A program made the translations under genes and the position numbers. A DNA stretch of 64,000 nt, from NCBI GenBank assembly GCA_030434245.1, contig JAUISX010000004.1, forward strand, positions 1 to 64,000, written 5' to 3'. How positions within the stretch are numbered: position 1 is the first letter of the stretch; the number at the start of each line of letters is the position of its first letter. Under the pieces are notes generated by a model. That model worked only from the letters and a program-made list of their open reading frames with translations, was not told the origin of the DNA and made no database searches. Positions 21,141 to 59,800 of the stretch are shown one piece after another. This DNA is from Porphyromonadaceae bacterium W3.11. Lineage in GTDB: Bacteria > Bacteroidota > Bacteroidia > Bacteroidales > Porphyromonadaceae.

Positions 21141-21317
21141 CATACTAATTCTAATTAAAACAATCATTTAACTTTCAAAGGTACTTCAAAAGCCCATAAT
21201 AGAGAATGCCGGCACATAGAAATAATCTTAAAAGCGACATCTGTACCCCCCATTAATATCTTAATATTAATAAAGAGTACAGATGTACTAAATTCTAATT
21301 CCTATAACAGGCTTATT

Positions 21318-22871
21318 TCACAAACCCCATCCAGGATTTTGTTGTTTGGCAATTTCAGGATTTGTCTTAATATCATTACTTGGGATAGCCCAAACAAATT
21401 TATCATGTCCAGCAGGGATCTCAAGGTTAAGCCCTACTCCACTATACAGATAAGGTGTTGAACCATCTCTTCTCGCCTGAGGTGCATAACGTTTCATTGG
21501 CATATTCCAACGACGAAGATCCCAAAGACGGAACCCTTCAAATGCTAATTCTCTAGTACGCTCATCTTGTATTTCCTTAAACAACCTAGAGCCAGTAGAT
21601 TTAACAGCACTTAAGCCACGGCTCAAGCGAAGATCATTTAGATACCTAGTAGCTCGGACTGCGTCATCCATCATAAAAGCAGACTCAGATGCTATAAGAT
21701 ACTGCTCAGCAATTCGAAAAACTTTAGGTTCGGTCAAACTATTTGGGACATAACCACCCCAAACATCATACAAGCTACCAAAGAGTGATGCATACTCCTT
21801 ATCGCCCTTAAACTTAGATATAACATATAGAGAATATGTTTCATCGCCATAAAGACACTTTTGCTCCTCAAAATAAACCTTTTTACGTAGATCAGTATCA
21901 GAATATAAATCTAAAACCCACTGAGTAGGTAAATAATCAGGATTATTTCTAAGGCCGTACTTTTCCTCATATAGTGTAGTTGGAGAATAATAATTGGATG
22001 TATTAGGAAGTTCATTAGGTCTCTCAATACGTAATTGTAATATCTCCTCTGTACTTAGGCTACTATGCCACATCAATCTATAATTCTCTTCACTAGGTAT
22101 AGTTAGAGGGTATGATGCTGACGAAATCAATGATTCTGCAAGCTCTAGAGCACCGGCCCAATCAGACATATAAAATTTAACTCTAGCCTCAAGTGCAATA
22201 ACAGCATCAATGGTGATACCAAAGGCCATCGCACTACCTTTATTTGGAGCTAATAACTTTTTAGCTTCCTTGATATCTACATTTAGAATATGATCATAAA
22301 CAGCCTTGTTAGTTGAACGACCAGGCATTCCAAAAGGGGCATACTCTAAAGTCAAAGGCACACTCAAATCAGTTTCTGCAGTTTCTGCATGGTATGGTGC
22401 ACCATATCGTATTGCTAAATTAAAAAGATAGTAAGCACGTAAAAAATGTGCCACGCCAGTCGCTTTCGCCACTGTAGCTTCCTCATCTGGATTACTAGTA
22501 GGCACCTTTGCAAAACGAGGCAATGCATAATTAATATTTTTAATTCTGCTGTAATACGCTTGCCATACGCTACCTAGGTCTTCATTACTGGCCTTAAATG
22601 GCTCCCAATCATAAGCGTTACTCATATTATTAGAGAAGCCTACAGAGGCATTAAGTTGGTCGGCTTGAACATCCTGAAGATTCTCAAAAATACCTTTTTG
22701 GACAGTTCTGAAACCAGCCATAAAACCAGCCTCCCAATATCTAACATGATCTACAGTCTTTAGAGACTGATGCTCAGGTATAGCATTTGATGGTAGCCTA
22801 TCTAAGTTACATGAAGCTAACAATAGCGATATGGCGATACCATAGATTACTCTTAAATATAATTTATTCAT
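21318..22871 (-). CDS. SusD/RagB-family nutrient-binding lipoprotein
   Basis: The 517-residue lipoprotein (MNKLYLRVIYGIAISLLLASC, acylated Cys 21) has the SusD/RagB layout: N-terminal SusD-like part with a TPR-type helical core (HFLRAYYLFNLAIRYG around 150) and a C-terminal RagB part ending with RTRELAFEGFRLWDLRRWN and IPSNDIKTNPEIAKQQNPGW, both strong family marks. It forms the lid of the SusC-type transporter encoded just upstream (21-base gap) at the cell surface. In P. gingivalis the related RagAB pair imports oligopeptides, which fits the protease in this locus, but ligand cannot be read from sequence. Confidence 0.92.
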   Translation of the reverse strand: MNKLYLRVIYGIAISLLLASCNLDRLPSNAIPEHQSLKTVDHVRYWEAGFMAGFRTVQKGIFENLQDVQADQLNASVGFSNNMSNAYDWEPFKASNEDLGSVWQAYYSRIKNINYALPRFAKVPTSNPDEEATVAKATGVAHFLRAYYLFNLAIRYGAPYHAETAETDLSVPLTLEYAPFGMPGRSTNKAVYDHILNVDIKEAKKLLAPNKGSAMAFGITIDAVIALEARVKFYMSDWAGALELAESLISSASYPLTIPSEENYRLMWHSSLSTEEILQLRIERPNELPNTSNYYSPTTLYEEKYGLRNNPDYLPTQWVLDLYSDTDLRKKVYFEEQKCLYGDETYSLYVISKFKGDKEYASLFGSLYDVWGGYVPNSLTEPKVFRIAEQYLIASESAFMMDDAVRATRYLNDLRLSRGLSAVKSTGSRLFKEIQDERTRELAFEGFRLWDLRRWNMPMKRYAPQARRDGSTPYLYSGVGLNLEIPAGHDKFVWAIPSNDIKTNPEIAKQQNPGWGL

Positions 22872-22892
22872 AATGTTTTTTATTCGTCAGAC

Positions 22893-25800
22893 TTAAAAGT
22901 TCAATTCTACTCCTAAAGTAAACTGTTTGGTATTAGGATTCATGCCTCGTGAAGCATTACTATTATCTTCAGGATCTTGCCCCTGGAATTTAGTAAAGGT
23001 CAAAAGGTTACGACCAGATAAGAAAATTTTCGCACCAGTCAAAGCACTCTGTTTTTCTAATAAACTTTTTGGTATTGTATACCCGAGAGTTAAATTTTTA
23101 AGTCTCATGAAAGATGCATTTTCAAGATAACGTGTATCGTATGAAAGTGCCTCTCCATATTTTCTCTGATACTCAAGGCTAGGATACTTTGCATTCTGAA
23201 GGGGTTTTTTCCAGTAGTCCATAACATCTCGATCTTGAGCAAACCCTTGTGCTGCATATTTCATAGGGTTTTCCAAAAAATAACGATCCAGAGATAGTAT
23301 ATGCTTTCCAAGAAAAAATGCAAAATCAGCCTGTAGTGAAAATCCTTTCCAATTAGCAACCAAGCCAAAACCACCGGAGAATGGTGCATAACGAGCAATA
23401 CCTGAATTTTGATCAAGAATATCAGAATGCTCGGAAGTTAACATAGTCTCATCCTTATTAGTACGCTCTGGATAAAAAACGCCATTCTCACTTTCAGGAA
23501 TGTACCAACGAGGATATCCATTCTTAGGATTAATATCCTTAAAGATAGGTAAAACATACATAATCGGTTTTCCAACTATATATCCCACACCAGTATTTGG
23601 AATAATCCATGAGTCACGACCTTGGAATAATTCAATCACTTTATCTTTATTATAGTTAAAGTTAAAGTATGCAGACAATCCATAATCTTTTCCAGAAAGT
23701 ATATCTGCTGAAATATTTAAGTCAATACCTCTATTCTGATACTTACCAACATTCTTCTTAACAAAAGCATATTGACCAGATAACTCTAGACCTGAAGTAT
23801 ATGGATATGGGACATCCATCAGCATATCAGAAGTTAAGCGATCATACAGCTCTACTTTTAGGTGAAGTCGATTAAAGACATCAAGACTAACGCCCAAAGT
23901 AGTTTTTCTTTGCTTCTCCCAACCTAGATCAGGATTACCTGGACTTACTAACCCCCAGCCTTTTATTCCATTATACTGGCTATAGTTTCCAACAAGTGCG
24001 AGAGATTCATAATAATCAATATCAGCGTTACCCTGTGTACCAGTACTTAAACGCAAATCAAGATCATCAATCCAATCTACATTCTCAAGGAACGATTCCT
24101 TCTTTGCCTTCCATAAAAGTCCAGCAGACCAGAACAACCCGTTTCTCTTATTTGCACCGAAAACAGAAGAGGCATCATTTCTAAGTACTAGGTCTACATA
24201 ATATTTATCATCGTAGTCATACCCAAATTGTCCAAAAAACGAAAGAAAAGCATATTCATATTCATTTTCAGAGATTCTGATGTCCTTTGTTGCAGCAGAA
24301 AGCAAGGTCAGATTATCATCCACCAATCCGCCTCCTGATGCACCAAAGCCATCGGCTTTGAATTCAGTATATTCATGACCACCTAAAAGAGAGAAATGAT
24401 GAATATCGTCGAAATTAAACTTATACTCTGCTACAGTATTTGTAGATAGTGAGTAACCACCATTAAACGATCTCGTCTTACTACCATGACCTTCATTCTT
24501 GATATATGAAGGTTTGGATAAACTGTTGTAGATATTATAGTTGAGAGTCACTCCTACTTGTGAACGGATTTGAAAATTTTCAAATGGAGTGATTGTCAAA
24601 CTACCGATTGTGTTTAATACTAAATCTCTTGTATTATATAGATTCTTATCTATAACATATTTAGGATTAAGAAAAAGGAACACAGCGGGGATGGGACGAT
24701 CATATATTTCTTCACCATTCTCATCATACGGAGAATAGTATGGTGCTATATATGGTGCAAATCCTCCTCCAAATGAATTAGAAGGATAAGGAACCGTCTT
24801 AGTATTAGAATAGAACAAACTTGCGTTTAGCCCTAACTTAATGTAATCATTCAAAGTAGAATTTAAATTAAGTCGGGTATTCAACTTATTATATGATGAT
24901 CCCGCTCTAAGACCCTCTTGATCAAAAAAACCTAATGAGAAGAAATAATTTGTTCTACCCATTCCTCCTGAGACATTAACATCGGCCTGATATGTTGGGG
25001 CATTCTGATAAAAGTATTTATACCACTTGGTATTGTTCATACCATACTTCTTTTTCATCTCATCCAACTCAGCACCTGTCTTGATTCCAAACTCTTCTAA
25101 CATTTGAAAAGTCTCATCAGTATTTTGAAGCCTATTATAGTAACTAGTATTAGCAAGTGACGAAATACCATACTGTGCTCTTACATTGATCTTTGCCTTT
25201 TCTGACATTGACCCACGCTTAGTCGTTACATATATCACACCATTTGCAGCTCTTGCTCCATAGATGGAAGTAGCAGCAGCATCTTTAAGAAACTGCATAC
25301 TCTCAAAGTCGTTAGAGTTCATCCCTTGTATGATACCTGCCGATACAGGCATACCATCAAGGATATACAAAGGTGCAGATCCAGAGTTAATAGACCCTCT
25401 ACCATGCAACTTAACAGATGCAACAGCACTTGGCTCTCCAGAAGAAGTAGAAACTTGTACACCAGCGACCTTACCCTGAACAGCATCAAAAATATTCGCT
25501 GTCGGCTTCTCTGTCAAATCCTTAGAACCGACTTTTACAATAGAAGCAGACGTAGCCGCTACCTTCTTTGAAGCATAACCTACTACTACGACTTCATCTA
25601 AGAGCTCAGAACTAGGTTTTAGTTGGACCTTCATGTCCGCTGATGCCGGCACTTCTTGAGTATCATAACCGATGAAGCTAAATATGATTATTTCTCCCTT
25701 AGTTGCCTTTAGTTTAAATTTACCATCAAAGTCAGTTGATGCTCCTACGGTTGGATTATTCTTAAGACTAACCCTAGCTCCAATTAGAGGCTCATTATTC

Positions 25801-25898
25801 TCGTCTATCACAAGCCCTTGTACGTTGATGTCTTGTCCGAAAGCGATCTTTATAGTAAATAGGATCATTCCGAACATCATCAAAAATTTATTTTTCAT
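22893..25898 (-). CDS. SusC/RagA-family TonB-dependent outer-membrane transporter
   Basis: From ATG 25898 (MKNKFLMMFGMILFTIKIAFGQ, signal peptide) the protein has 1001 residues; the open frame extends to 25967, but those residues do not look like a signal. It has a carboxypeptidase-D regulatory-like domain (about 25-100, VQGLVIDENNEPLIGARVSL), a TonB box-like LDEVVVVGY, the plug with LYILDGMPV and GARAANGVIYVTTKRG, and a long beta-barrel ending in FTLGVELNF. These are SusC hallmarks. With the SusD partner it imports a ligand across the outer membrane. A 167-bp gap precedes it, so it may also have its own promoter. Confidence 0.93.
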   Translation of the reverse strand: MKNKFLMMFGMILFTIKIAFGQDINVQGLVIDENNEPLIGARVSLKNNPTVGASTDFDGKFKLKATKGEIIIFSFIGYDTQEVPASADMKVQLKPSSELLDEVVVVGYASKKVAATSASIVKVGSKDLTEKPTANIFDAVQGKVAGVQVSTSSGEPSAVASVKLHGRGSINSGSAPLYILDGMPVSAGIIQGMNSNDFESMQFLKDAAATSIYGARAANGVIYVTTKRGSMSEKAKINVRAQYGISSLANTSYYNRLQNTDETFQMLEEFGIKTGAELDEMKKKYGMNNTKWYKYFYQNAPTYQADVNVSGGMGRTNYFFSLGFFDQEGLRAGSSYNKLNTRLNLNSTLNDYIKLGLNASLFYSNTKTVPYPSNSFGGGFAPYIAPYYSPYDENGEEIYDRPIPAVFLFLNPKYVIDKNLYNTRDLVLNTIGSLTITPFENFQIRSQVGVTLNYNIYNSLSKPSYIKNEGHGSKTRSFNGGYSLSTNTVAEYKFNFDDIHHFSLLGGHEYTEFKADGFGASGGGLVDDNLTLLSAATKDIRISENEYEYAFLSFFGQFGYDYDDKYYVDLVLRNDASSVFGANKRNGLFWSAGLLWKAKKESFLENVDWIDDLDLRLSTGTQGNADIDYYESLALVGNYSQYNGIKGWGLVSPGNPDLGWEKQRKTTLGVSLDVFNRLHLKVELYDRLTSDMLMDVPYPYTSGLELSGQYAFVKKNVGKYQNRGIDLNISADILSGKDYGLSAYFNFNYNKDKVIELFQGRDSWIIPNTGVGYIVGKPIMYVLPIFKDINPKNGYPRWYIPESENGVFYPERTNKDETMLTSEHSDILDQNSGIARYAPFSGGFGLVANWKGFSLQADFAFFLGKHILSLDRYFLENPMKYAAQGFAQDRDVMDYWKKPLQNAKYPSLEYQRKYGEALSYDTRYLENASFMRLKNLTLGYTIPKSLLEKQSALTGAKIFLSGRNLLTFTKFQGQDPEDNSNASRGMNPNTKQFTLGVELNF

Positions 25899-26065
25899 AC
25901 CATTATTATCATATTGACATTTATACATCATCAATCCATCAATATGAAGGATATAATGAAGGTACAATTATCATTATTTTACATCTTAAAATTACTTCTA
26001 AAATCGATCAAGCAATACTCATTTTTGAGCGAAAATACTTATGACAACATAGAAGTCAACACAAA

Positions 26066-27439
26066 TTAATAATCACTAAATGGTCTTACCGAAAATTTAT
26101 ACTTATCCGTATTACCTGTTAAGATTGAACGATGGATACGAACCTCTGACTTATCAAATTCCACACCATGCAATTTATATTTATTAAATCCACTGTTTTG
26201 GTAATCATCAGAAGCAGGATAAAAACCTTTTGTTCCGAGATACACATGTGAATTACCACTTATATAACCTGCAGTTGGGAAAAGACGCTTTACATACTTA
26301 GCACTACTATCGCTCCAGAAATCTTCTTTTGAAATAGCATCCAAAGTCATCTTAGCATCACTTCCAATCAAGCGAGCAGTTACTTCGAGTGCAGACATAT
26401 TATTATCTTCTCCGAAATTAACCAAGCGGTATCTATAGGCAGTTCGCATACGATTGTCATCTCCAATGAATTTAATACCATAAACGACACCGCCAGACAC
26501 TGAATTATATTCCGCAGTGTATTCTTTTTCCTCTTGGCCTTTACCAACTTTTATAGTTTCCTTTACACTCTCCTTAACTTTACTTTCGGTAAAGGAAATA
26601 ATGCCAGAAGAAGGGAACACGCCCAGCCATTCTGAAGCTGATGGGAAATGATAAATACCAGCTAAAAAGCGTTCTGCAAAAAGACTCTTAGCCTCATCGA
26701 ACGAGAACATTCCAAGCTGATCAATACCATTAGAAGTTGCAAAACTCTTACCTTCAGTAGCAACACCGAATTCTGAAACATACTCTAATGCAAGTTTATC
26801 AGGATCATAGACTCCAGGATTATCCGAACCGCCAGCATTCTTGGAAATCGTAAAAGTCTTTCCATCAAAGTTAATAACTATAGCTGCATCGGTTTCTGTT
26901 ATTGAAAAGGTATCTGTGGCATCAAGCCCCTTAGCACGTACTCTTTCACCATTTTCATCCCTTAAAACCTTCCATGTTGCGCCATCATCTGTACTAATTT
27001 GCCAAAAGCCGTCAGCTGTAATCTGCACTTTAGGCATCTTTCCATCTTCTGCTTTAGCCTTAATAGGTTCCCCACCTGAATCTCTCATAAGTTCACCATT
27101 AATAGTCCAGTATAAAGTCCCATTAAGCTCTTTCACAGAAATATCTGGTGTTTTTCCGTTCCTTCCATTCATCAAACTAAGCTTACTACCGTCAGACATA
27201 ATGAGTTCATAACCATATGAAGTCTCAGTCCACTTTTCGATAGATTTCTTTCCAGCTTCGGCGTCAATGAGAACCTGAAGAGTTTCGATTCTTGAATTAG
27301 CATTTTTCATTAAATTCTCAAGGTTACTCACCCTTGATTTTAAATCCTCAAGGTCTTGATTAATTGACGATAGATCAGTACATGATACTGCAATTATCAA
27401 AAGCAGAAGGCCACATGTAAAATTTGCGATTTTCTTCAT
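26066..27439 (-). CDS. Surface lipoprotein with coiled coil, DUF4988-like N-terminus and FISUMP-like C-terminus
   Basis: The 457-residue lipoprotein has signal MKKIANFTCGLLLLIIAVSC (acylated Cys 20). Residues about 22-65 form a coiled coil (DLEDLKSRVSNLENLMKNA). Residues about 70-205 carry repeated W-containing strands (YGYELIMSDGSKL, LYWTINGELMRD, GFWQISTDDGATW) like the DUF4988/PL29-lyase N-terminal region found on Bacteroidota surface proteins. The C-terminal third (RLFPTAGYISG, GTKGFYPASDD, SVRPFSDY) resembles the FISUMP/FGE-like domain. It sits where SusE/SusF-type ligand-binding lipoproteins are usually encoded, directly before susC. Binding of the imported ligand is inferred from position. 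Confidence 0.75.
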   Translation of the reverse strand: MKKIANFTCGLLLLIIAVSCTDLSSINQDLEDLKSRVSNLENLMKNANSRIETLQVLIDAEAGKKSIEKWTETSYGYELIMSDGSKLSLMNGRNGKTPDISVKELNGTLYWTINGELMRDSGGEPIKAKAEDGKMPKVQITADGFWQISTDDGATWKVLRDENGERVRAKGLDATDTFSITETDAAIVINFDGKTFTISKNAGGSDNPGVYDPDKLALEYVSEFGVATEGKSFATSNGIDQLGMFSFDEAKSLFAERFLAGIYHFPSASEWLGVFPSSGIISFTESKVKESVKETIKVGKGQEEKEYTAEYNSVSGGVVYGIKFIGDDNRMRTAYRYRLVNFGEDNNMSALEVTARLIGSDAKMTLDAISKEDFWSDSSAKYVKRLFPTAGYISGNSHVYLGTKGFYPASDDYQNSGFNKYKLHGVEFDKSEVRIHRSILTGNTDKYKFSVRPFSDY

Positions 27440-27470
27440 TTTCAGTCTATATAATTTGGTTATTTAACAC

Positions 27471-28439
27471 TCAATAATTGTATGATAGACTCAGTACAAG
27501 CCTATCACTGTAGTTCGTATTCAGCCCTTTCAAGTAGGCAAAGTCTATTGAACCACCCATAAACTTAGCCCCAACACCAGCTGTCCAATGGCTAGTGTAC
27601 CTTGTACCTATCTGAACACCGGTCCTGAAGCTAACAAGATCAAACACGGTATATTCTCCTCCAAGGTTCGCTTGAAAAACCTGATTCTTAATAGGCAAAA
27701 AGAAATATCTAGCTCCTACTAAAGAGGTAATCTTATGAATATCACCTAACTTGACAGTTAGGTCGGAAGTTATTTCTGCTTTAGCTGGGAGATTATATCT
27801 CTCAGATGACGAATAGTAAAGATGGGTTCCAAAATTAGAGACCCGTGCGGCCACATTAAGTGTTGCTAAAGAACGTGCGATACTGAAATCAGTAAGGTAA
27901 TTAGCTCCTACAGAGAAACTTCCTGCATAAGCAGGACGGCCTGTATAGCTCTGGATAAACGACATCGTAGCAAAAGCACTAAACTGATCGTTAATCCTAA
28001 AAGCATAACCAAGATCGGCAGCCCAATCAAAGGGGTTATATTTCCTTATGTCCTGATCATCGTATGGCCCATCTATAATTTGATATGACAGCCCTCCTTG
28101 GTAGCGAAATCCAGCAAATACTACATGTCTATTCAAAAACTTAGCACCTAAAGATATTGAACCATTCTTAAGACGACCCGATGCTTCTTCATAAGTTGGA
28201 TATAACATTCCATTTGCAGAGATCGTGTACTTATTAGGCTGATACAATATAGAAGCTGGATTAATATACAGATAATTGCTCTTCGCACTCATTAATGTTG
28301 CACTACCCATGGATGCTGCTCGTGCATCAACTGGTGCTTCTAGTATTGGGAGAAGACGATTCTGAGCATTCATTTCAAGAGAGGCTAACCCTATTGAAAG
28401 AATGAGTAGAAGGTACTTTTCAAAAAACTTAATTCTCAT
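27471..28439 (-). CDS. PorV/PorQ-family outer-membrane beta-barrel
   Basis: The 322-residue protein has a signal peptide (ending near MNAQ, residue 26) and the PorV/PorQ family start LEAPVDARAASMGSATLMSAKSN with NPASIL, then regular amphipathic strands to a C-terminal aromatic residue (VLSLSYNY). In T9SS, PorV shuttles cargo from the translocon SprA/Sov to the attachment complex. This gene lies 58 bases after the gene for a T9SS cargo protease, so it may be a dedicated partner of that cargo. It could instead be a general barrel of the family; the true PorV and PorQ genes are probably elsewhere. Confidence 0.8.
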   Translation of the reverse strand: MRIKFFEKYLLLILSIGLASLEMNAQNRLLPILEAPVDARAASMGSATLMSAKSNYLYINPASILYQPNKYTISANGMLYPTYEEASGRLKNGSISLGAKFLNRHVVFAGFRYQGGLSYQIIDGPYDDQDIRKYNPFDWAADLGYAFRINDQFSAFATMSFIQSYTGRPAYAGSFSVGANYLTDFSIARSLATLNVAARVSNFGTHLYYSSSERYNLPAKAEITSDLTVKLGDIHKITSLVGARYFFLPIKNQVFQANLGGEYTVFDLVSFRTGVQIGTRYTSHWTAGVGAKFMGGSIDFAYLKGLNTNYSDRLVLSLSYNY

Positions 28440-28497
28440 ATTATTTATTCATTTTACCAAAAATATTTATTTGGAATCTCTTATACTCTAAAGTAGA

Positions 28498-31332
28498 TTA
28501 TTTCTTTAAAATACTTCGTACTGTTTCACGACCATCTACTTTTATCACTAAGACATAAGAACCTGGCATCAAATGTTTCATATCAATCTGTGCAGCTCCA
28601 GAATCATTCACCTTCGCATCTTCTTGGAAAATTAATTCTCCATTCACACTTTGAACTTTTACATGGGCGGCATTGTATTTTGGATTAAGCCATATATTAA
28701 GCTCTCGCTGAACAGGTATAGGCCATACCGCAAATACGTCAGAAGTAGCATCCTCGGTGACTGTAACTTCTATGGTAGTATTGGTTGTCATATAGCCATT
28801 ACTTGCTGTAACCACAATAGAAGTTTTTCCAGGTTTTTCTCCAATAATAAATAAATGACCAGCCTCATTAATAAAGGTACTAGCAACAGCTGGATTACTA
28901 GATATAGCCTTAAAGCTGTGGCTCAAGAAGTAAGGTTTTTCGAAATAACTAGGAAGTGCCAATTCTATCGGTTCACTATGAATACCAACTAAAAGTGGCT
29001 GAATAGGTGACTTAAGAATTGGTTTCTTGATATACACGACTCTGAACGGAACACTAAACGTTTTGGTAAGTCCTAACTCGTCTGTCAAAACAACTTTAAC
29101 GGCATGCTCTCCTTCACCTAAAACTGGACGAATTACGAACTCAATTCCATTTGTGACCTTTCTGTGTGTAATACCTCCTCTGTCACCTGCTATTTCATAG
29201 CTCCAAGAATGACCATCTATATCCTTTACATCTAAGAGATATGTACTTCTATCAATAACGAAGATAGGTTCACTTGGAATGTTTGAAATTTCAGGAGCAT
29301 GATTCACTTTTGTATCACCAGCGAAAAAACTTGGTTCTGAAGTATTACCCCACTTGTCATATGCTACTAAAGCAAAATGATATGTAGTGGCAGGCTCAAG
29401 AGAAGAAACAGTAAAACTCATCTCATCACCAGGTTTTGTTCCGACACCACTGATGAATCCATTAGCTGTTCCTGATACATCACCATCTGTAAGATAATTA
29501 TTCTTATCTAGTGGCTTATTAGATACATACAATCTATATCTGAGAGGTTGATTATCATCCTCGTCACTTGGAACAACCCAATACACGGTAAGTGCAGTAA
29601 ATGCATTTTCAGTGGACTTATCTTTAATAATCTCTGGTTTATCAGGTGCTTTGTGATCATTCTTCAGTGTAAGTGCTGCATATGCATCAATAGTACCTAT
29701 ACCAAGCTTTCCAGCATATTGTGGATTAACCTTGTCCAGATCCACTGGAAGTACTGACGCAAGCATACGCGCTTTTAGCTCATCATTTGTAAATCCCTGT
29801 CCACCAAACTTAGATAAGACAAGAGCAGCAACACCTGAAATATGTGGACATGCCATAGATGTACCATGATAGTAATGATACTCTTCTCCATTCAACATAG
29901 CAGGTGCCATTGTACTAAGCACACCTGCTTTTTCACCATACCTCTGCATATCACCACCTGGTGCAGCAATATCTACCCAATCACCGTAAGTAGAATAACT
30001 AGCTTTTGTAAAGTTAGGAGCAACTGCTGACACAGCTATTACGCGCTCGTAATTAGCTGGAGGAGTGGGATAATCCAAGTTGTCATTACCCGCTGCAAAA
30101 AATACGATTCCACCTTTCATTGGAGAGTCTTTTCTTTGCTCGCCATAATTTGGATCATCTTTAACCAGGACTGTTCCGGCTTTATCGATAAAAAAGTCAA
30201 TAGCCTCTTTTATGACATCTGGCATAACTTCAACCCCTGATGCAAAAGGGTAACCCCATGAATTCTGAGAAATAGTAGCACCATTTAGAGCTCCATATAT
30301 GATGGCATTAGCAATGTTCTCTGTTGAAGCACCTTTTGTAGTCACACCATCAGGATTCGCTCTAAGAATTGCAGCAGACATCAGACGTACTCCAGTTGCC
30401 TTTGGGTCTTTATCATTTCCACCAGCTACTCCTGCAACACCTATTCCATTATTCGATCTCGCTGCTACTGTACCTGCTACGTGAGTACCGTGACCATCTG
30501 CATCAGGGAGAATATCTGCTGAATTAGAGACAAAACAGAATCCATGAATATCATCTTTATATCCGTTATCGTCATCATCATGGTCATTCTTGGCCTCGCC
30601 TGGGTTGACCCATAGATTATCTACCAAATCTGGATGAGTCACATCAATACCGCCATCAACGACACAAACAATTACATTCGGTGTTCCGGTGGTTATTTCC
30701 CATGCTTTAAAAAGATTAATATCACAGCCTTGCTTTGACCAATATTTGTCTCCTAAATTGTTGTAGTGCCATTGAAGAGGTAAGTATTCATCATCAAATG
30801 GATATTTATCAGAGCGAATGAGATCATATACGTGTTCTTCGCCTTGAGCAGAGCCAAAAACTTCGGCTTTACATGAATACTCCACTTTTTCGATCTCTGC
30901 GACACTATTTAGTAAAGAAAAGGCAGAGGGCAAAGGGGTTTCTTCATCAAAACTTGCAATATACCACCGATCAAGCCCCGCATCCTTTAGTGCACCCTCG
31001 AATTTTCCAGAGGGAAGGACAAGACGTTCTACCTTGTGCGTATTCATCGCACTCAAAGCAGCAGACATAGGTCCAGGCACAGATGACATCTGAATGACAC
31101 CAGAATTGATAAGCTTTATATCTCTTGATGTCTCTCGACCAACCTTAAAAATAATCTTGCCTGGTATCGCACTCTTCGGAGCATACAAGGACGAAGTGTT
31201 TCTTTCAGAAACATTTTGGTCACTTGTCTGAGAAGACGTTAATACTACTTCTCTCTTATTCTCACACCCATATATGCTAAAAAGAGAGGCAACCAAGACT
31301 ATTAGCAGATTAAATATATATTTTTTCTTCAT
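28498..31332 (-). CDS. Subtilisin-like (S8) protease with lipobox and T9SS sorting domain
   Basis: The 944-residue protein starts with a lipoprotein signal (MKKKYIFNLLIVLVASLFSIYGC, Cys 23). After a pro-region comes the S8 catalytic domain with Asp 226 (VDGGIDVTHPD), His 281 (HGTHVAG), oxyanion Asn 416 (AAGND) and Ser 492 (GTSMACPH), so all active residues are present. A fibronectin III-like domain follows (about 565-670), then Ig or cadherin-like domains, and a C-terminal T9SS type A sorting domain (about 865-944, WPIPVQRELNIW to LVIKVDGRETVRSILKK). The enzyme should cleave proteins at the cell surface. Having both a lipobox and a T9SS signal is odd. The SusCD pair nearby could import its products. 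Confidence 0.9.
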   Translation of the reverse strand: MKKKYIFNLLIVLVASLFSIYGCENKREVVLTSSQTSDQNVSERNTSSLYAPKSAIPGKIIFKVGRETSRDIKLINSGVIQMSSVPGPMSAALSAMNTHKVERLVLPSGKFEGALKDAGLDRWYIASFDEETPLPSAFSLLNSVAEIEKVEYSCKAEVFGSAQGEEHVYDLIRSDKYPFDDEYLPLQWHYNNLGDKYWSKQGCDINLFKAWEITTGTPNVIVCVVDGGIDVTHPDLVDNLWVNPGEAKNDHDDDDNGYKDDIHGFCFVSNSADILPDADGHGTHVAGTVAARSNNGIGVAGVAGGNDKDPKATGVRLMSAAILRANPDGVTTKGASTENIANAIIYGALNGATISQNSWGYPFASGVEVMPDVIKEAIDFFIDKAGTVLVKDDPNYGEQRKDSPMKGGIVFFAAGNDNLDYPTPPANYERVIAVSAVAPNFTKASYSTYGDWVDIAAPGGDMQRYGEKAGVLSTMAPAMLNGEEYHYYHGTSMACPHISGVAALVLSKFGGQGFTNDELKARMLASVLPVDLDKVNPQYAGKLGIGTIDAYAALTLKNDHKAPDKPEIIKDKSTENAFTALTVYWVVPSDEDDNQPLRYRLYVSNKPLDKNNYLTDGDVSGTANGFISGVGTKPGDEMSFTVSSLEPATTYHFALVAYDKWGNTSEPSFFAGDTKVNHAPEISNIPSEPIFVIDRSTYLLDVKDIDGHSWSYEIAGDRGGITHRKVTNGIEFVIRPVLGEGEHAVKVVLTDELGLTKTFSVPFRVVYIKKPILKSPIQPLLVGIHSEPIELALPSYFEKPYFLSHSFKAISSNPAVASTFINEAGHLFIIGEKPGKTSIVVTASNGYMTTNTTIEVTVTEDATSDVFAVWPIPVQRELNIWLNPKYNAAHVKVQSVNGELIFQEDAKVNDSGAAQIDMKHLMPGSYVLVIKVDGRETVRSILKK

Positions 31333-31425
31333 AATCTATTACTAATTTTTGCATTTAATGTTTCATTCAAATCACAAAACACAAACACCATCTTATTCAA
31401 ATAAAATTGTGACATCTGAGATAAA

Positions 31426-33102
31426 TCATTTTCCTGAAGATAACAGTTTATCTTGACGTACTACCTCCTCGTGAGCCATAGACAAAAAAGCTTCTCTTTC
31501 TGCTGCAGTTTGAGCACCTAAATCTCTATGGAAATAACTTATTGCCAAAACAGGCATTAGATCCATAACGGAATTAAACCTAGTACCACGAGGGATAATA
31601 AGAATCTTTTTCTCTTCATTATACCATTGAGTAAGTCCATCAACCTCCTTTATATACTTAAAGCCAGAAGCTACAAGAAGGTTTTGAAACTCTTCAGTTA
31701 GATAGTATTTTCTTTCGCTTAAAAATGCTCCCAAATGAACATCATTAAAAACAGCTACCAATTGATCTAGCTTATCAGCAATTTCACCCGTATTTGGATC
31801 TACTTCTGAATCATTCATACCGAAAATACGTGCAACTAATGGACTTAGACTTGGGTCAACTGTATACTGAGACTCTACGACAATACTTGGATGCTTCTTA
31901 CTCCGTGTTTCATAATCAAGGGTTGAACCATTTGCCAGCTCATTTTCCTTGATTTTTGCGTAAGTCCAATCACCAAACAAATACTCATATTTATCAAATG
32001 GGAACTTACTAAACGTCTTATATGGCTCTGTCTGTTTTCCTCTTGACTTAAGTGTAATTGTAGAAGGCTTGGTTTCATCCTTATTAATTTTCATGACCAA
32101 ACCATAAGCTGCTTCAGAATTAGACCCAGAAAAGACCAAAATCTTACTAGAAGGATCTACAGTATTATTTGATATGGCAAATCCATTATACGACAAAAAA
32201 TCCATAAACTCACTAGACTGTAAAACGTCTGGAGCATAGGATGTTATTACTATGTTTGTAATAAGTTTTGAAGATGTGTCAATATTATAGACAACATCAG
32301 AATAGACCGACGATGCATAAACAAATTTTACTGTCACACTACCTGGCTGACCAAGCAAACCGGCTGCGGCTGAATACTCAAGCAAAAAGTTGCCATTATT
32401 TTCTTCAAATGCAATGACTTCATAAGGGGTAGACCTTCTTTCCAAAAGAGGGAGTGCATATTTGGCATTTTTTCGTCTAGGTTGCTGAGTGAAATTCACG
32501 ACAACAACTTTTCCAGACATATTAACATACATCTGAGCAACTCTCTCTTTTAGTGTAGAATTAGCATCAGCAATTACTTTTATAAACCCGCCAATCCGAT
32601 TTGCATGTAGCCACTCTTTACCATCTTCAATTTCAAAAGACCAATCAGAATCATTTGAGGATACATCTATCAAAATGGCTTGTCCATCAGACAATAGGTC
32701 TATATCTTTTGGGGAAACATCTAAAAGCGTAATAGCCTGACTTTGCGTAACAGTTACCAATTCTTTAACACCGCCTGCTACCACTAAAATACCAGACTTT
32801 CTTTTTTCCCCAGACCTATTCTCTTTAGCTGAGACATAGATCCCCTTGTCCTTATACTCTACTTTAAGCCAACTAGGATCTAGAGAGACAGCTTTAACTA
32901 TTGCTTGATTAGTTTTAACTGTTATTTGAGGAATATAGCCAGCTTCAACCTCTTTGCTTGTAAATTCTAGAGATTGAGATGAAAGCTCTAGCACCGCAGG
33001 CTCCGTATTTCTATCCATCTCATCCTCAGGTACACAAGATATAGCTAACACTATAAAAGTCAAGAAGACAGAGGTTAATCTTATCATTGTTTTCACATTC
33101 AT
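31426..33102 (-). CDS. BACON-domain lipoprotein, long paralogue
   Basis: The 558-residue product (ATG 33102; 33105 also possible) has a lipoprotein signal ending ISC. Two BACON-like beta-sandwich domains follow (about 35-120 and 125-208), each ending with a V/I-T-Q-x-Q strand (VTVTQSQ, VVNFTQQ). Residues about 215-315 align with the neighbour gene (LPLLERRSTPYEVIAFEENN versus LPLLKKSPTKHEIIEYEKKQ). About 230 further residues have no counterpart in the neighbour; the segment AHEEVVRQDKLLSSGK ends the chain. BACON domains usually act as surface binding or spacer modules. It precedes the protease gene by 93 bases. Confidence 0.8.
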   Translation of the reverse strand: MNVKTMIRLTSVFLTFIVLAISCVPEDEMDRNTEPAVLELSSQSLEFTSKEVEAGYIPQITVKTNQAIVKAVSLDPSWLKVEYKDKGIYVSAKENRSGEKRKSGILVVAGGVKELVTVTQSQAITLLDVSPKDIDLLSDGQAILIDVSSNDSDWSFEIEDGKEWLHANRIGGFIKVIADANSTLKERVAQMYVNMSGKVVVVNFTQQPRRKNAKYALPLLERRSTPYEVIAFEENNGNFLLEYSAAAGLLGQPGSVTVKFVYASSVYSDVVYNIDTSSKLITNIVITSYAPDVLQSSEFMDFLSYNGFAISNNTVDPSSKILVFSGSNSEAAYGLVMKINKDETKPSTITLKSRGKQTEPYKTFSKFPFDKYEYLFGDWTYAKIKENELANGSTLDYETRSKKHPSIVVESQYTVDPSLSPLVARIFGMNDSEVDPNTGEIADKLDQLVAVFNDVHLGAFLSERKYYLTEEFQNLLVASGFKYIKEVDGLTQWYNEEKKILIIPRGTRFNSVMDLMPVLAISYFHRDLGAQTAAEREAFLSMAHEEVVRQDKLLSSGK

Positions 33103-33170
33103 CATTTACCTTATACAAATATTTTTAAAAGCATACCGAGTTCGCACAGAATTGTAATAAAATCAATGCT

Positions 33171-34211
33171 TTACCCCTTGATTGGAGTAAAAATAACCTT
33201 CGAATCCTTCAATTCATTAACTACGACCTCGACGTCAAAACCAGTTGAAGTACTAGTTCCAGTATAATTATCAGATCCCTTTTGAACTTTTATTTCAAAC
33301 CCCTTGTCTATTAATGTTTGCTTAAATTCATCTGATTTTAGAGTCTTAGCATCATCAGAAATCATCACTATCTGGTGAATAGACTTAGTTGCTGCAGTTA
33401 TGCTATATGTTACAGACTGAAACACAGGAGAAGCATAAAGGAATACTACATAAGGGATATCAATAGGTTCACCCAGTTCACTGTCCACATACTTGACAAC
33501 AAAACTTCCTTGCTTCTTCTCATATTCAATAATTTCATGCTTTGTCGGACTTTTCTTCAACAACGGAAGACCAAATCTAGCCCCGTTATTAAAAGCTTGT
33601 TGAGTAATGGACAATTCTTTAGGATTAGTACCTTTGACCTGTACGTAAATCTGACCTTGCCTTTCACTACTGTTTGTATTTGGTGCTATAGATAATTGGA
33701 GGAAGTTATCAATACGAGTCACATTGATCCAATCTTCCGCTGATTCATCAATCTCATAGTTCCATTCACCTCCATTTGACCTAACATCCACTATTAAGGT
33801 TTTACCTTCTGCTGGAACTACCATCTCAGTTTCTGATAACTCTAAATACAGAGCTGAACCCATTTGAACCACTTTAACTACTTCAAATTTTGTTCCAGCA
33901 AAAACTAACAAACTAGTCTCTCTCTTTTCACCTGAATTATTAGGCTTTGCAGATATATAAATAGTCTTATTACGATACTGAGCTTCTAACCAGTCAGGAG
34001 CGAGAGATTGTACTTTTACAATTTGCTGATTAGTCGTAACGGTCAATAGAGGGGCTACTTCTTGAGATTCACTTGGTAATTCTAGTGCATATTGCGATAA
34101 TTCTAAAGTTTCCGGCTCCATTAGTGCCTTACCTCCTTCTTGCATAGAACAAGAGCTACTCATAATAGCAATAAATACCATTATTGTAATTAAGTTTATC
34201 ACACGTTTCAT
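33171..34211 (-). CDS. BACON-domain lipoprotein, short paralogue
   Basis: From ATG 34211 (MKRVINLITIMVFIAIMSSSC, acylated Cys 21) the protein has 346 residues; the frame is open to 34250, but the extra 13 residues would break the signal. It has two BACON-like domains (about 30-120 and 122-205), ending in VVKVVQMG and LSITQQ. A third domain (about 215-325) is shared with the downstream paralogue (YVVFLYASPVFQSVTYSITA). It lacks the paralogue's long C-terminal extension. As first gene of the reverse-strand locus it probably starts the operon. A surface location and binding role are inferred from the family. Confidence 0.8.
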   Translation of the reverse strand: MKRVINLITIMVFIAIMSSSCSMQEGGKALMEPETLELSQYALELPSESQEVAPLLTVTTNQQIVKVQSLAPDWLEAQYRNKTIYISAKPNNSGEKRETSLLVFAGTKFEVVKVVQMGSALYLELSETEMVVPAEGKTLIVDVRSNGGEWNYEIDESAEDWINVTRIDNFLQLSIAPNTNSSERQGQIYVQVKGTNPKELSITQQAFNNGARFGLPLLKKSPTKHEIIEYEKKQGSFVVKYVDSELGEPIDIPYVVFLYASPVFQSVTYSITAATKSIHQIVMISDDAKTLKSDEFKQTLIDKGFEIKVQKGSDNYTGTSTSTGFDVEVVVNELKDSKVIFTPIKG

Positions 34212-34321: not shown

Positions 34322-34329
34322 CAAACATA
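34322..34329 (-). promoter_or_regulatory. Possible -7 element of the protease/SusCD locus
   Basis: The reverse strand reads TATGTTTG, matching TAnnTTTG, 111 bases before the ATG of the first lipoprotein gene. No convincing -33 element is seen. The gaps between the seven genes that follow are 21 to 167 bases, which allows one long transcript. Confidence 0.45.
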
Positions 34330-34486
34330 CAAAAATATAACTTCATCGTAATTAAAACGTAACACTTTAACATTTAAATAATATTATTAAATCAGTTGAT
34401 TAATCAAATCATTAAATACAAGAATCAGAGTATATCAATCAACGAAAGATAAATGGTAAAAATGACTATGTTTCATCTTTTCTTTT

Positions 34487-53825: not shown

Positions 53826-56800
53826 ATGCGGTGGCAACGAATATTACTCACCCTGCTTCTCATTGCTTTATCGATGACAGCAATGGCTCAACAGTGGAGC
53901 AGAGATTCGATTGCGTACCAGCCCAGTCGTGACTTATATCTCATATACCAGCGTGACTCTCTAGGGGCTTGGCAACTCCGGAATGTCTTAAAGGGGGATG
54001 AGTATCTGAGAGAGAGATTAGACACCCTCAATTGGTCTCGCTTCTACAGCTTGAATAAGCATAAAAGCCTTCAGCCTAAGGAAAGACCTACCCTCAAGCT
54101 CCAAGCCAATGGGTATCTAAGGCTGAACCTGAATAACACAACCATAACGGACGATAATCCAGCTATACCTGTAGGACTACGTCGGAGAAGCTTTGTGGAC
54201 TTTAAGCAATTGGCTAATATTCACCTACAAGGCTCATACGGCGAGCGGATCAAGCTCGACCTCTCATACAATACCGAGACGGCATTAGCCAGTCAGCGAC
54301 GTCGGTTAAGACTTCAGTTTGAAGGTGAGGAACATGATTTTATCCAACGTATTCAGGCTGGGAATGTCCGAATGGAGAGCAGAAATCCTCTTATTGACAC
54401 AGGTCAAGAGCTCTTTGGTATTCGTGGTGATTTTCTTCTAGGCCCCTTTTCTCTTCAAGTCGTAGCTAGCAGGCAGCATAGTGAAGAGAGAAGGATTGTC
54501 GTACAAGGGGGACGACAACTTCGTCAGGTGGAACGCAAATCATCGGACTACGATGTGGCTCAACACTTCTTCCTTTCAGAATTCTTTGCTCAGCAATATG
54601 ACTATGCCCTCAGAGCCATCCCACTCATTGAGAGCGAACTATACATCGACCGTATCGAGGTCTGGGTCAGCACTTCACGCGAGGGCTCTTTGCTTCCAAA
54701 TATTGAACCGATTGTCGCCTACACATCGGCGAGTCTGGTGGATAATACCCCTCCGAGTGAACAATCCTTTGGTACCAGCCCGACCCTACATATCCCTTCA
54801 GCACAACGATTGCCCGAAAGTGCTTATACCCTCAACCCCACGCTGGGCTTTATCTCACTCAATACCCCCCTGAGCGAAGGGCAAGTCTTAGCTGTCGCAT
54901 ATAGCTACACATATCAAGGCAAAAAGTATCAAGTCGGAGACTTTCAATCCAGTAATGGGGAAAGAAAGACGGCACTCATCAGTGGACAAGACCTATCTCC
55001 CAATTCTCCCCTCTGGGATTTGATGATGAAAAATGGCTACTCCTTACAGAGCGGGCAAAGACAACTAACAAGTGAGGATTTACAAGTAGCACTACTGCTG
55101 AGAGACCCATCCGCTGGGATTGAGAAAGCTATAGTCGAGAGGGGGGAGCAAGCTGGGAGAAGTTGGCTAGACCTTTTTGGCTGGGATCGCACCAATCGGA
55201 GCGGATCTACGAATGAGCCTGATGGACAATTTGACCTCATTGAGGGCGTCACATATTCTAGCAAAAGTAGCACGCTCTTCCTTCCTTTTAGACGACCCTT
55301 CGAGTCGGTTCCACAGGAAGCCAATAATGGAGCCTCATTTTACCCAGTTTACACTAGCCTATATGACCTCTCTCGACGAGAGGCCCAGCAATCGGCTGAG
55401 TTAGACCGCTTCGTTATTCGCAGCCAAGTCTCTGGAAGTTCCACCCAAATAGTCTCCCTAGATTCACGAGAATTAACCCCTGGCTCCGTAAGAGTAGAAA
55501 GTGGGGGACGAACCCTTACGGAAGGGAACGACTATACCATCAATTATGCCACGGGTTATCTAACACTCACTAGTGAAACAAATGAACGTGTAGAGATTAT
55601 CATTCAGGAGCATGAACGCAGCCGAAGGAAAGAAAAATCTCTCGTCGGGACAGAGCTTAATTGGTCTCCACTAGCAGGCCTGAATATAGGTACTTCATGG
55701 CTGACCTACTGGGAAGATAGCCATAGAGACAGGATACGCTGGGGAGAAGAAGCCCTTAAAAGTATGATGTGGGGAATTCATGCCAGTTATAAAAGTTCTG
55801 GCATGGCTCCTACTCGCTGGCTCAATGAGTGGTGGGGAATGGATCTCAAAGAGCCCTCAGCACTAGAAATACAGACCTCCTACGCTCAGCTCCACTCATC
55901 TTACAACCTACCCGATGAAAACGACCACATCATTATTGAGGACTTTGAACAAGGTAATCAATGGATAGACCTCACCTTTCCACTTAAGTGGCAATTAGGC
56001 TCCCTACCCTCACCCGAGCTTCGGGCTCAGATGGCTTGGTTCACGATCGATCCTCTACTTGTCGCAGACGGTGCTAAGTACCAACCAGATCACCTTAGAG
56101 CTGATAAGGAGCAGAGAAAGCATCCACTCGTGCGACAGGTCATGACTCAGGAGCTATTTCCCAAGCGGGATCAAAACCCTATACTCCCAAACAATCTTAT
56201 GCTCCTCAACCTTTCCTATTACCCAGAGGAGAGAGGGCCATACAATCTTGATGCTTCACTCATCACACCCGAAGGGAAAACGAATAATCCCGCCTCTCTA
56301 TGGGGAAGCATTATGACCACCCTACCCATCCGTGACTTAGAGAGTAGTCGCTACAGTTACATAGAAGTTTGGATGCTAGACCCCTACTCTGTAGGCTTGG
56401 ATAGCGAGGGGACACTACTCCTCGATTTGGGAAAAATAAAAGAAGAAATCATACCTGACGGAGGCTTATCCTACGAGGGGGCTCAGGAGAAAAGCCAGAC
56501 AGAATGGGGTAAAAGAGCAAGTCAGCCACCGCAGCTATACGGATTTGATGCGACTGGGAATATTCCTATGGAAGTCCAAGATGTAGGGCTAAACGGATTG
56601 AGTTCCAAAGAGGAGAAAGGACACCCTACGTACGCAAACTATCTAGAGCAGCTCACCAACATAACCAATATGGACCCATGGAAAGATCAGCCCTTTGGTA
56701 ATCCAGAACAGGATCCTGCTGGCGATGACTATCAATTCTTCCTTGGCGATAAATGGGATCAAATAAAGGCTCCAATCCTCGAAAGATACAAGTACATCAA

Positions 56801-59800
56801 TGGGACAGAAGGGAATGCACTGGATAATGTCATACAGGGTGTTAGGAGTGCCGCCACTTGGCAACCCGATACCGAAGACCTCAATAGAGATATGATACAA
56901 AGCCTTGAGGAGAGTTTCTTCCGCTACGAAGTCTCTATTTCTAAAGCAGGCTTAAGTAACGTGAACCCCAATATCGTGAGTGAGAAAATCTTACAAAATG
57001 GCGAACGGTGGGTCAAACTTCGTATTCCTCTCAAAGAGCCTACCACTATTCTAGGCAATAATCCATCGTTGCAGGATGTCCGCACCGTTAGGCTCTCGCT
57101 TACTAACTTTCATAAACGGATACACCTCCGTCTGGCTCAATTACGTATCATCTCTACCGCATGGAGTAGCTATGATGCAGCCATAGACCCATCTGACCGT
57201 CGAACTGCAGCACTACACGTCGGCTCTCTCAGTACAGAGGAGGATAGCGATCGACAACCTATACCGTACGTTTCTCCCCCTGGAATACATAGAGAGATTC
57301 GTCATCAAGCCATCTCTTTAGCTCGCGATGATGAGCAAGCTCTAGCACTTGAATTCTCAGAGATAGAGCCAGAGCAAGCCGTAGCCGTTTTTCAGGAGCA
57401 GTCATTGGATCTCCGCCACTATAAGCAATTACAGCTATTCACTCATCTACACTCTCCATTGTTAATTACAAAAGGGGAGGTGGAGCTATTCATTCGTATC
57501 GGTCAGGATTATACCGAAAACTACTATGAGTATGCCCTTCAACTCACCCCGACACCTATAAGTGATTACCAAGGCATGGGTGAGCACGAGCTACAACAAT
57601 TGATATGGTTACCTAATAACCAACTGAACATAACGCTCGAAGCACTAACACATCTCAAACAGGAAAGGGCACAAACTGGAGCGGACCCCTCAGTGCCATT
57701 TATACGAGCGATACTATCAAGCAATCAAGGAGAAAAGATGAGCATCAAAGGACATCCAACCTTAGGTAAAGTCTCAGCCATGTTGATTGGAGTCAGAAAT
57801 AGGTCAGATCACACCATCAGAGGAGAGGTCTGGATCAACGAACTCGCCCTAACAGGTGCTAGAGATCTCGGTGGAAAAGCATTTCAAGGCTCCATGAGAG
57901 CAAATTTAGCTGAGCTAGCCAGCCTTGAATTAGATGGACGATACCAATCTGCCGGATTTGGTGGCGTTACACAAGACCTTCGAAAAAGTGAATTAATGGA
58001 CCTAAAAGCCTTCAACATAAGGTCCAAACTAGAACTCGGACTACTGCTCCCCTCTTCATGGCAAGTGAATGCGCCTATTATATATGCTTATAATATCCAA
58101 CGAAGTAGTCCGCTCTATGACCCCTACAATAACGATCTCCGCTATCTCCCTTCGGATAATCATCGTGCTGGCAGGATGGAGATGCTACAAAGCTTCGAAA
58201 TCAAAGACCTCTATGCAGATCCCAAGAGAGATCAAAAACGTTTCTACCATATTAACAATTTCCATTTTACTTATCATCTACTAAATCGCAAAAGCTATTC
58301 ACCTGAATTGGAAGATGACATCAATAGGCACGCTCGTAGTGATCTAACCTATACCTTCGAGCCAAGACAGCAAAATTATTATCGTCTTTCTAGCCGATGG
58401 AATCGTCTGTACCATTACCAACGTTACACTGGCAGTAATGAGCAAACCACCCTCAACACATTATTAAGCCGGTGGGATTGGGAACGAGCCCTTAATATTC
58501 GCCAGCAGATCCTTCCAGGGCTTCAAGCTGTTATCCAAAGCAATACGATGGCTCTAATCGATGAGCCCTTTGAGCAAAATCACTTATATGACAAGAGTGC
58601 TGAGTTCAAACTATTCACTCAAAAAATTGGCAGAGATATACTCTCTCTAGGAAAAACCATGCACTACAACAACATGATAGAACTAGGGTATCGATTACCT
58701 CTCTTTCACAAACGTGGATGGCAAGGGCTACAAGGTACAGCCACTTGGCGAAGTAACTACAGATGGGATAGAGGCCGTCATATCACAGGCAGAGAAATAG
58801 GGAATCGAGCTGAGAATGCCACGTATCTGGACGTACTCCTTCGGTATGACTTCTCTAACCTATATCCAAAGGGGAAAGCACAATTCGTCAAGTCAATGGG
58901 CATCCATTATAGACAAACCACAGGCAGTGCCATACCCGGACTTTTACCAGAGGCAGGAAAAGCGCTTGGTTTTTCGATATACCAAAAGGAATTGGCCCCT
59001 TCTATTCTCTACTTTCTAGGATTAGATCATCACAATAAAGAACTCAGACGAGTTTACGACAGAGGATGGATTACCACTGATAAAAGTCAAATTCGCCCAC
59101 TAACCTACTTCAGTCGCGACGAGATTGACGCCACCCTTCACATGACGCCGATTAAAGGCCTTGAGATCGACCTACATTGGCTCACCTCTAATCATCGACA
59201 TCACGAGTTACGAGGTGACGTGAGCAGCCTCGAACTCCTTACCAACGGGTCTCAACGATTTTCCATCATAGCACACAAAGGCTCTAAGCAACTGGATGTT
59301 AATAACCTACAGGAATCATTCTTCCAAAAGTATGCTATAGGAGGTCGCTTCAAAGACGGACTCCCTTCTCTCCTTTCAACACTTCCAAATATGGAAATAG
59401 CCTACCACTTCACACACCTACATCCTTGGCTTACAGAGCAATTTACTCACCTTCAGATAAGACATCGATATGCATCTTATATCGATATTCCCAATTATCA
59501 CCTATCCGATGATGAGTCAATGCCATACATACCATCCATGACTATAACCGAAGACTTCAACCCGCTAATAGGACTCAGTATTGGGACAAAAAGTGGGATA
59601 AATATTGAAGAGCGATATATCCAAAGAAAGAGCTACACCCTACTCTCCACTTCTCAGCAGTTATTAGAGCAGTCAGATCACGAGGTAAGCTCTGCCATAA
59701 ATGTAGCCTTTAAGTTCAAACCTCTATTCCAAAGCACACTCAAATGGCTACATAGCTTTGAGCAACAGCTCTCTTTACAATTACATCATAGATACACCAA

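Follow-up and report, generated by a model that had tools for sequence, protein, structure and literature searches.

The window, by which we mean the whole 64,000-nucleotide stretch of Porphyromonadaceae bacterium W3.11 DNA analyzed here, carries seven genes on the reverse strand that encode two BACON lipoproteins, an S8 subtilase, a PorV-like barrel, a DUF4988 lipoprotein and a SusC/SusD pair (Table 1). ORF calls and domain searches confirmed the position and order that an earlier note on this DNA had given for all seven, and the gaps between them (65, 93, 58, 31, about 137-167 and 21 bases, 5′ to 3′) match its range of 21-167 bases; the fifth gap, between the DUF4988 gene and susC, varies with the start chosen for SusC. 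Pattern matching placed TAnnTTTG boxes, which we take to be of the Bacteroidota -7 type, at 34337 and 34329 upstream of the short BACON gene, and together with a hairpin behind susD these would fit, though not prove, a single transcript for the seven genes. In line with the earlier claim that the protease is the only enzyme of the locus, domain searches of the seven genes returned zero glycosidase or lyase catalytic domains, and the locus is not a glycan polysaccharide utilization locus, in which carbohydrate-active enzymes accompany SusCD. The fifth gene, previously described as FISUMP-like, has no FISUMP match in Pfam at E<0.1 and is a DUF4988 gene instead; three DUF4988 genes follow the PorV gene in a related cassette, L020.

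Table 1. Features of the window described in the text.
Feature	Position	Strand	Evidence
BACON lipoprotein, short form: two BACON domains, C-terminal part truncated	33171..34211	-	PF13004 45.8 bits; N-terminal signal and Cys
BACON lipoprotein, long form	31426..33105	-	PF13004 43.5 bits
S8 subtilase with lipoprotein signal and type A T9SS CTD	28498..31332	-	Peptidase_S8 145 bits, Por_Secre_tail 33 bits
PorV-like 14-strand outer-membrane barrel, cassette clade	27471..28439	-	NF033709 144.8 bits; tree
DUF4988 lipoprotein, coiled-coil N-terminus, accessory	26066..27439	-	PF16378 120.6 bits
SusC/RagA-type TonB-dependent transporter	22893..about 25900-25928	-	TIGR04056 719 bits
SusD/RagB-type lipoprotein	21318..22871	-	PF07980 77.4 bits (SusD_RagB)
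Two candidate Bacteroidota -7 boxes (TATTTTTG, TATGTTTG), 5′ of the first gene	34322..34337	-	pattern only
Candidate terminator hairpin 3′ of SusD	21238..21285	-	20-pair stem
Divergent SprA/Sov translocon homologue, context, outside the cassette	53826..60020	+	TIGR04189, 1211 bits summed

The S8 protein of the window consists of a lipoprotein signal (SIYGC), an S8_N prodomain, the catalytic domain, FN3/Ig-like domains and a type A CTD at about residues 865-944. Its motifs VVDGG, HGTHVAG and GTSMACPH preserve an intact Asp-His-Ser triad (Asp near 226, His near 281, Ser near 492), as expected of an active subtilase, and among the 39 S8 proteins that we found paired with a PorV-family gene, GTSxA is present in all and HGTHVAG in 37. 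PF18962 detected the type A CTD in all three S8 copies of this genome (33-39 bits, cut-off 27), while TIGR04183 scored the window protein at 17.1 bits, under its cut-off of 23. The lipoprotein signal had been overlooked in the earlier note. A lipobox-like Cys ends a hydrophobic stretch in each of the 36 full-length paired S8 proteins (33 called by rule and 3 by eye), in place of the signal-peptidase-I-type Sec signal expected of T9SS type A cargo, and no lipoprotein signal was found in 16 ordinary type A cargos of Porphyromonas COT-290, our comparison genome with a full T9SS. Acidic residues directly follow the Cys in every S8 protein with a rule-detected Cys (37/37), a pattern similar to the export signal published for Bacteroidota surface lipoproteins (PMC5080379); as the fit is loose, surface export is what we infer from it. 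A Lys near the C-terminus, which in solved structures touches PorV (PMC10994853), is present in the tails of the listed paired S8 proteins.

The core cassette is one or more BACON lipoprotein genes, then an S8 subtilase gene with a type A CTD, then a gene for a PorV-family barrel. The W3.11 genome (2.63 Mb, 99.98% complete) has exactly three S8 genes, and its type A CTDs, also exactly three, are encoded by these very genes; all three have a BACON lipoprotein gene upstream and a PorV-family gene downstream; SusCD follows the window copy only. Transposase genes lie beside two of these three cassettes (L004:15315-17755 and L005:15361-17116), and one of the flanking transposases appears to be inserted in a metallophosphatase gene. 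A protease query against 84,980 species genomes gave 79 loci, and with further stretches of the same genomes added, we counted at least 39 distinct S8-PorV pairs across Bacteroidales, spanning Porphyromonas, Bacteroides, Odoribacter, Marinilabiliaceae, Prolixibacteraceae, Dysgonomonadaceae and Rikenellaceae, with up to six divergent protease paralogs per genome. The gap from S8 to PorV ranges from -4 to 90 bases in the 39 loci, a 4-base overlap being common, and a BACON gene lies immediately 5′ of S8 in 24 of them. Barrel and protease co-diverge: the distances among S8 proteins correlate with those among PorV proteins (r=0.79), above the maximum of 0.745 reached in 2000 trials of within-genome partner swaps. 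A barrel query in 149 other Bacteroidales genomes, a survey of barrel matches only, placed an S8 gene directly upstream in six of the eight new loci that were read. The proposal that the protease and PorV-like genes are recurring neighbors thus stands, since the 39 loci and the barrel-based search reject chance adjacency. The seven-gene set, in turn, was not borne out as a conserved unit, as relatives' loci keep the core and SusCD is missing at most cassettes, including the other two of this genome; the locus is two things joined, a conserved protease cassette and an optional SusCD pair.

Two other groups of S8 proteins came from the protease scan and served as contrast. A second family of about 2500 residues (L044-L098, e.g. 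L046 and L053) has the same N-terminal and catalytic domains, and none of its loci in the scan has a PorV neighbor. In Tidjanibacter (L072, L075, L076, L078 and L166), tandem runs of 3-5 S8 lipoproteins carry CTD-like tails, with no barrel gene adjacent to the arrays; one Tidjanibacter genome apparently has a single orphan PorV-like gene, which adjoins a BACON gene.

The barrel of the window belongs to the PorV/PorQ family (NF033709, cut-off 90), yet it scores only 50.6 bits against the PorV equivalog profile NF033710 (cut-off 250) and 34.8 bits against that of PorQ (cut-off 220). In the tree, a 97/90 branch separates the cassette barrels, including the paralogs of L004 and L005, from canonical PorV and PorQ, and a block of about 37 residues of canonical PorV is missing from the cassette barrels. 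Cut-offs and tree together reject the identification of the cassette barrel as canonical PorV or PorQ. Elsewhere, a PorV-like gene at L168:9674-10606 (genome G069) lies downstream of oligopeptide-transporter-like and DUF1460-like genes, with no adjoining CTD protein.

Profile searches of the W3.11 genome found no PorM, PorN or PorU, the PorU search giving only weak matches to the CTDs themselves; as for all T9SS absences given here, very divergent parts could escape such searches. The motor, ring and translocon of a working T9SS are therefore not all there, SprA being present and PorM and PorN absent, nor is PorU, by which a CTD would be removed. SprA adjoins ruvA in this genome, and canonical PorV (G000:C3:113405-114442) adjoins ispF. 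The protease of the earlier note keeps its type A tail, recognized by PF18962, but its secretion by the T9SS is doubtful, as it is a lipoprotein in a genome without PorM, PorN and PorU. The three genes are jointly absent, in an identical pattern over three profile searches, from 13 of the 23 cassette genomes (this one and 12 others). W3.11 and five Porphyromonas relatives nevertheless keep SprA and canonical PorV, while the other seven lack these as well; six of the seven are metagenome assemblies, which may be incomplete, and Odoribacter laneus is the only cultured isolate. Within the 13 genomes, a PorV-like gene lies directly 3′ of 35 of the 37 type A CTD genes, and each of the 35 non-canonical PorV-family genes has a CTD gene directly upstream; as each genome was picked for having one pair, this selection leaves about 22 of the 35 pairs unbiased. 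The two unpaired CTD genes encode a second O. laneus S8 protein and, in a metagenome-assembled Porphyromonas, an unrelated protein. The cassette is also found in 10 full-T9SS genomes (e.g. Bacteroides oleiciplenus and Carboxylicivirga), where use of SprA is possible. In B. oleiciplenus YIT 12058 (L024/G005), SprA, PorU, PorM, PorN and canonical PorV were all found; reviews describe Bacteroides as lacking a T9SS.

In locus L020, which comes from a SprA-less genome, the stop codon of the protease and the start of the barrel share one frame, and this natural read-through allowed the barrel and the C-terminal 100 residues of the protease to be folded as a single chain with AlphaFold2, using 11 paired rows. 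The model reached a mean pLDDT of 91.8 and a pTM of 0.85, with the linker alone uncertain, and among PDB entries it best matches the PorV of the substrate-bound translocon (8gl6/6h3i). A CTD left unplaced relative to the barrel would, by our estimate, have given a pTM near 0.65-0.70, and placement was judged from these scores rather than from coordinates or an error matrix. The type A CTD is thus predicted to dock on its cassette barrel, and because the chain is tethered, the prediction is weaker than a multimer test. In a solved structure, SprA accounts for over half of the contact made by the CTD (PMC10994853), so a CTD on the barrel alone may bind weakly.

The two BACON lipoproteins of the window are 34-35% identical. 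The long form has two BACON domains and two copies of an alpha/beta domain (AlphaFold2 mean pLDDT 89.9). The region of the latter (residues about 212-556) matched no Pfam family, and a search of the PDB with the C-terminal half gave no clear fold match, only Ig-like stacks.

For the SusC of the window, the nearest solved structure is RagA (E 4e-198, its bit score being double that of the next SusC), and for its SusD it is RagB, which makes this a RagAB-type pair and peptide import a fair reading. In P. gingivalis, RagAB imports gingipain-cut peptides (PMC11817032), and peptide uptake by the RagAB-like pair of the window is plausible. Under a strict rule, 5 of the 39 cassettes share their gene run with a SusC, where 1-2 are expected, a modest excess with P ranging from 0.003 to 0.075 depending on SusC density; under a loose rule, SusC-SusD pairs lie near 9/39 (about a quarter), and the independent barrel-search sample added two further neighbors. 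P. levii, P. somerae, P. macacae, Maribellus and others have SusCD beside cassettes, so that the lack of protease, PorV-like and SusCD co-occurrence in relatives, which the earlier note had named as counting against its proposal, is not what we found. The window SusC is most closely related to proteins of P. levii (48% identical) and P. somerae (46%), whose genes lie upstream of a different protease paralog; the association has therefore arisen more than once. Such repeated origin favors a functional link and leaves SusCD outside the core. From the idea of a protein utilization locus we therefore retain the RagAB-like SusCD that recurs by cassettes and drop the seven-gene unit, with T9SS secretion of the protease in doubt.

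Taken together, we consider it somewhat probable that the core is a protease display cassette, a lipoprotein-barrel pair independent of the T9SS, with the CTD acting as a permanent anchor. The S8 protease would be made as a lipoprotein and would reach the outer face of the outer membrane, most likely by the Bacteroidota surface-lipoprotein route, where its CTD would dock, from the extracellular side, on the PorV-like barrel whose gene directly follows that of the protease. There it would remain on the barrel uncut, and a docked and uncut CTD would serve as an anchor and not as an export tag, so that the motor, the sortase and, in some genomes, the translocon would not be needed for display. 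For the BACON lipoproteins encoded upstream, the probable role is either to bind or present substrate or to regulate the protease. As the window cassette is joined to a RagAB-type SusCD, its probable task would be the cutting of host or dietary protein at the surface, followed by oligopeptide import. For the broader proposal, in which a CTD and a PorV-family partner form a permanent complex that displays lipoprotein enzymes, as a two-gene module, in bacteria without a T9SS, we see even chances.

The main rival explanation makes the cassette PorV a dedicated SprA-dependent shuttle, the protease passing through SprA onto its own barrel and the motor being replaced or unneeded, which would be the type A counterpart of the type B CTD/SprF pairs. 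The retention of SprA and canonical PorV in W3.11 and its five relatives fits this, as do the cassettes of the full-T9SS genomes and the cognate shuttles encoded directly downstream of type B substrates (PMC12618676), but gene order is unchanged in the seven cassette genomes without SprA, where the explanation fails unless those assemblies are incomplete. Also against a shuttle, the proteases carry lipoprotein signals, which the 16 ordinary cargos checked lack, and in Flavobacterium, motor loss traps substrate on SprA (PMC10994853); overall, we find SprA-dependent shuttling unlikely.

Other rivals concern what the protease is for. The view in the earlier note of one seven-gene protein-utilization locus with a T9SS-secreted protease draws on the likeness of SusCD to RagA/RagB and on the strict, loose and independent counts of SusCD neighbors, and we hold it to be very doubtful in that form, as most cassettes lack SusCD, the pair in P. 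levii and P. somerae lies upstream and not downstream, by other protease paralogs, and the T9SS motor, ring protein and sortase are absent. It is also possible, if improbable, that the enzyme is a surface maturation or defense protease that trims surface proteins, toxins of competitors or host immune proteins, with the BACON proteins as inhibitors or targets and SusCD as an unrelated neighbor. The BACON gene directly upstream in 24/39 cassettes recalls the cognate inhibitors of the Tannerella KLIKK proteases, and the many divergent paralogs per genome suggest different targets. However, the BACON lipoproteins, with two BACON and two further domains, are large, unlike the small potempins, and the recurring SusCD neighbors point to nutrition.

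The component families of the display cassette are all known. In the open-access papers searched, we found no account of genomes without a T9SS in which a lipoprotein with a type A CTD has a PorV-family barrel of its own. Annotation pipelines take this CTD as proof of T9SS secretion, all type A CTDs are stated to use PorV (PMC12618676), and CTDs are described as tracking the T9SS with few exceptions, which are unnamed (PMC10202324). If true, CTD proteases with private barrels in T9SS-less genomes would break both rules and offer a minimal two-protein system for CTD binding to a PorV-type barrel. The module could then be what is left of a T9SS since lost, or it could predate T9SS shuttling and have given rise to it. 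It would also suggest that gut, oral and animal-associated Bacteroidales have a system for digesting protein at their surface.

The proposed display pair shares a type A CTD with a conserved Lys and a PorV-family barrel with the T9SS type A cargo and PorV of P. gingivalis and F. johnsoniae, but has a lipoprotein signal rather than one of the signal peptidase I type, one barrel per protease rather than one PorV for all, and, in 13 cassette genomes, no PorM, PorN or PorU and often no SprA. The type B CTD/PorP-SprF pairs of F. johnsoniae likewise have a cognate barrel encoded directly downstream and anchor their protein without release, whereas the cassette combines a type A CTD with the PorV family and type B pairs need the T9SS translocon. 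Tannerella KLIKK proteases resemble the cassette proteins in being CTD-bearing secreted proteases with an adjoining lipoprotein gene, but they use the T9SS, and the adjoining genes encode their cognate inhibitors, the potempins, which are small; we know of no dedicated PorV-like gene for them. The RagAB of P. gingivalis offers the nearest solved relatives of the window SusC and SusD, and no subtilase/PorV-like cassette beside ragAB is known to us. An uncut CTD held at the surface by a PorV-family barrel has precedents in PorU on PorV and PorZ on PorQ (PMC10202324), although these are T9SS-delivered and process other cargo, while the protein bound in the cassette would be a subtilase lipoprotein. 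BamG is a 14-strand FadL-type barrel whose extracellular loops hold the surface lipoprotein BamH (PMC12578637), which, unlike the cassette protease, has no CTD, is part of BAM and involves no protease. By analogy, the proposed complex of S8 protease and barrel would be comparable to SusD on SusC or to BamH on BamG.
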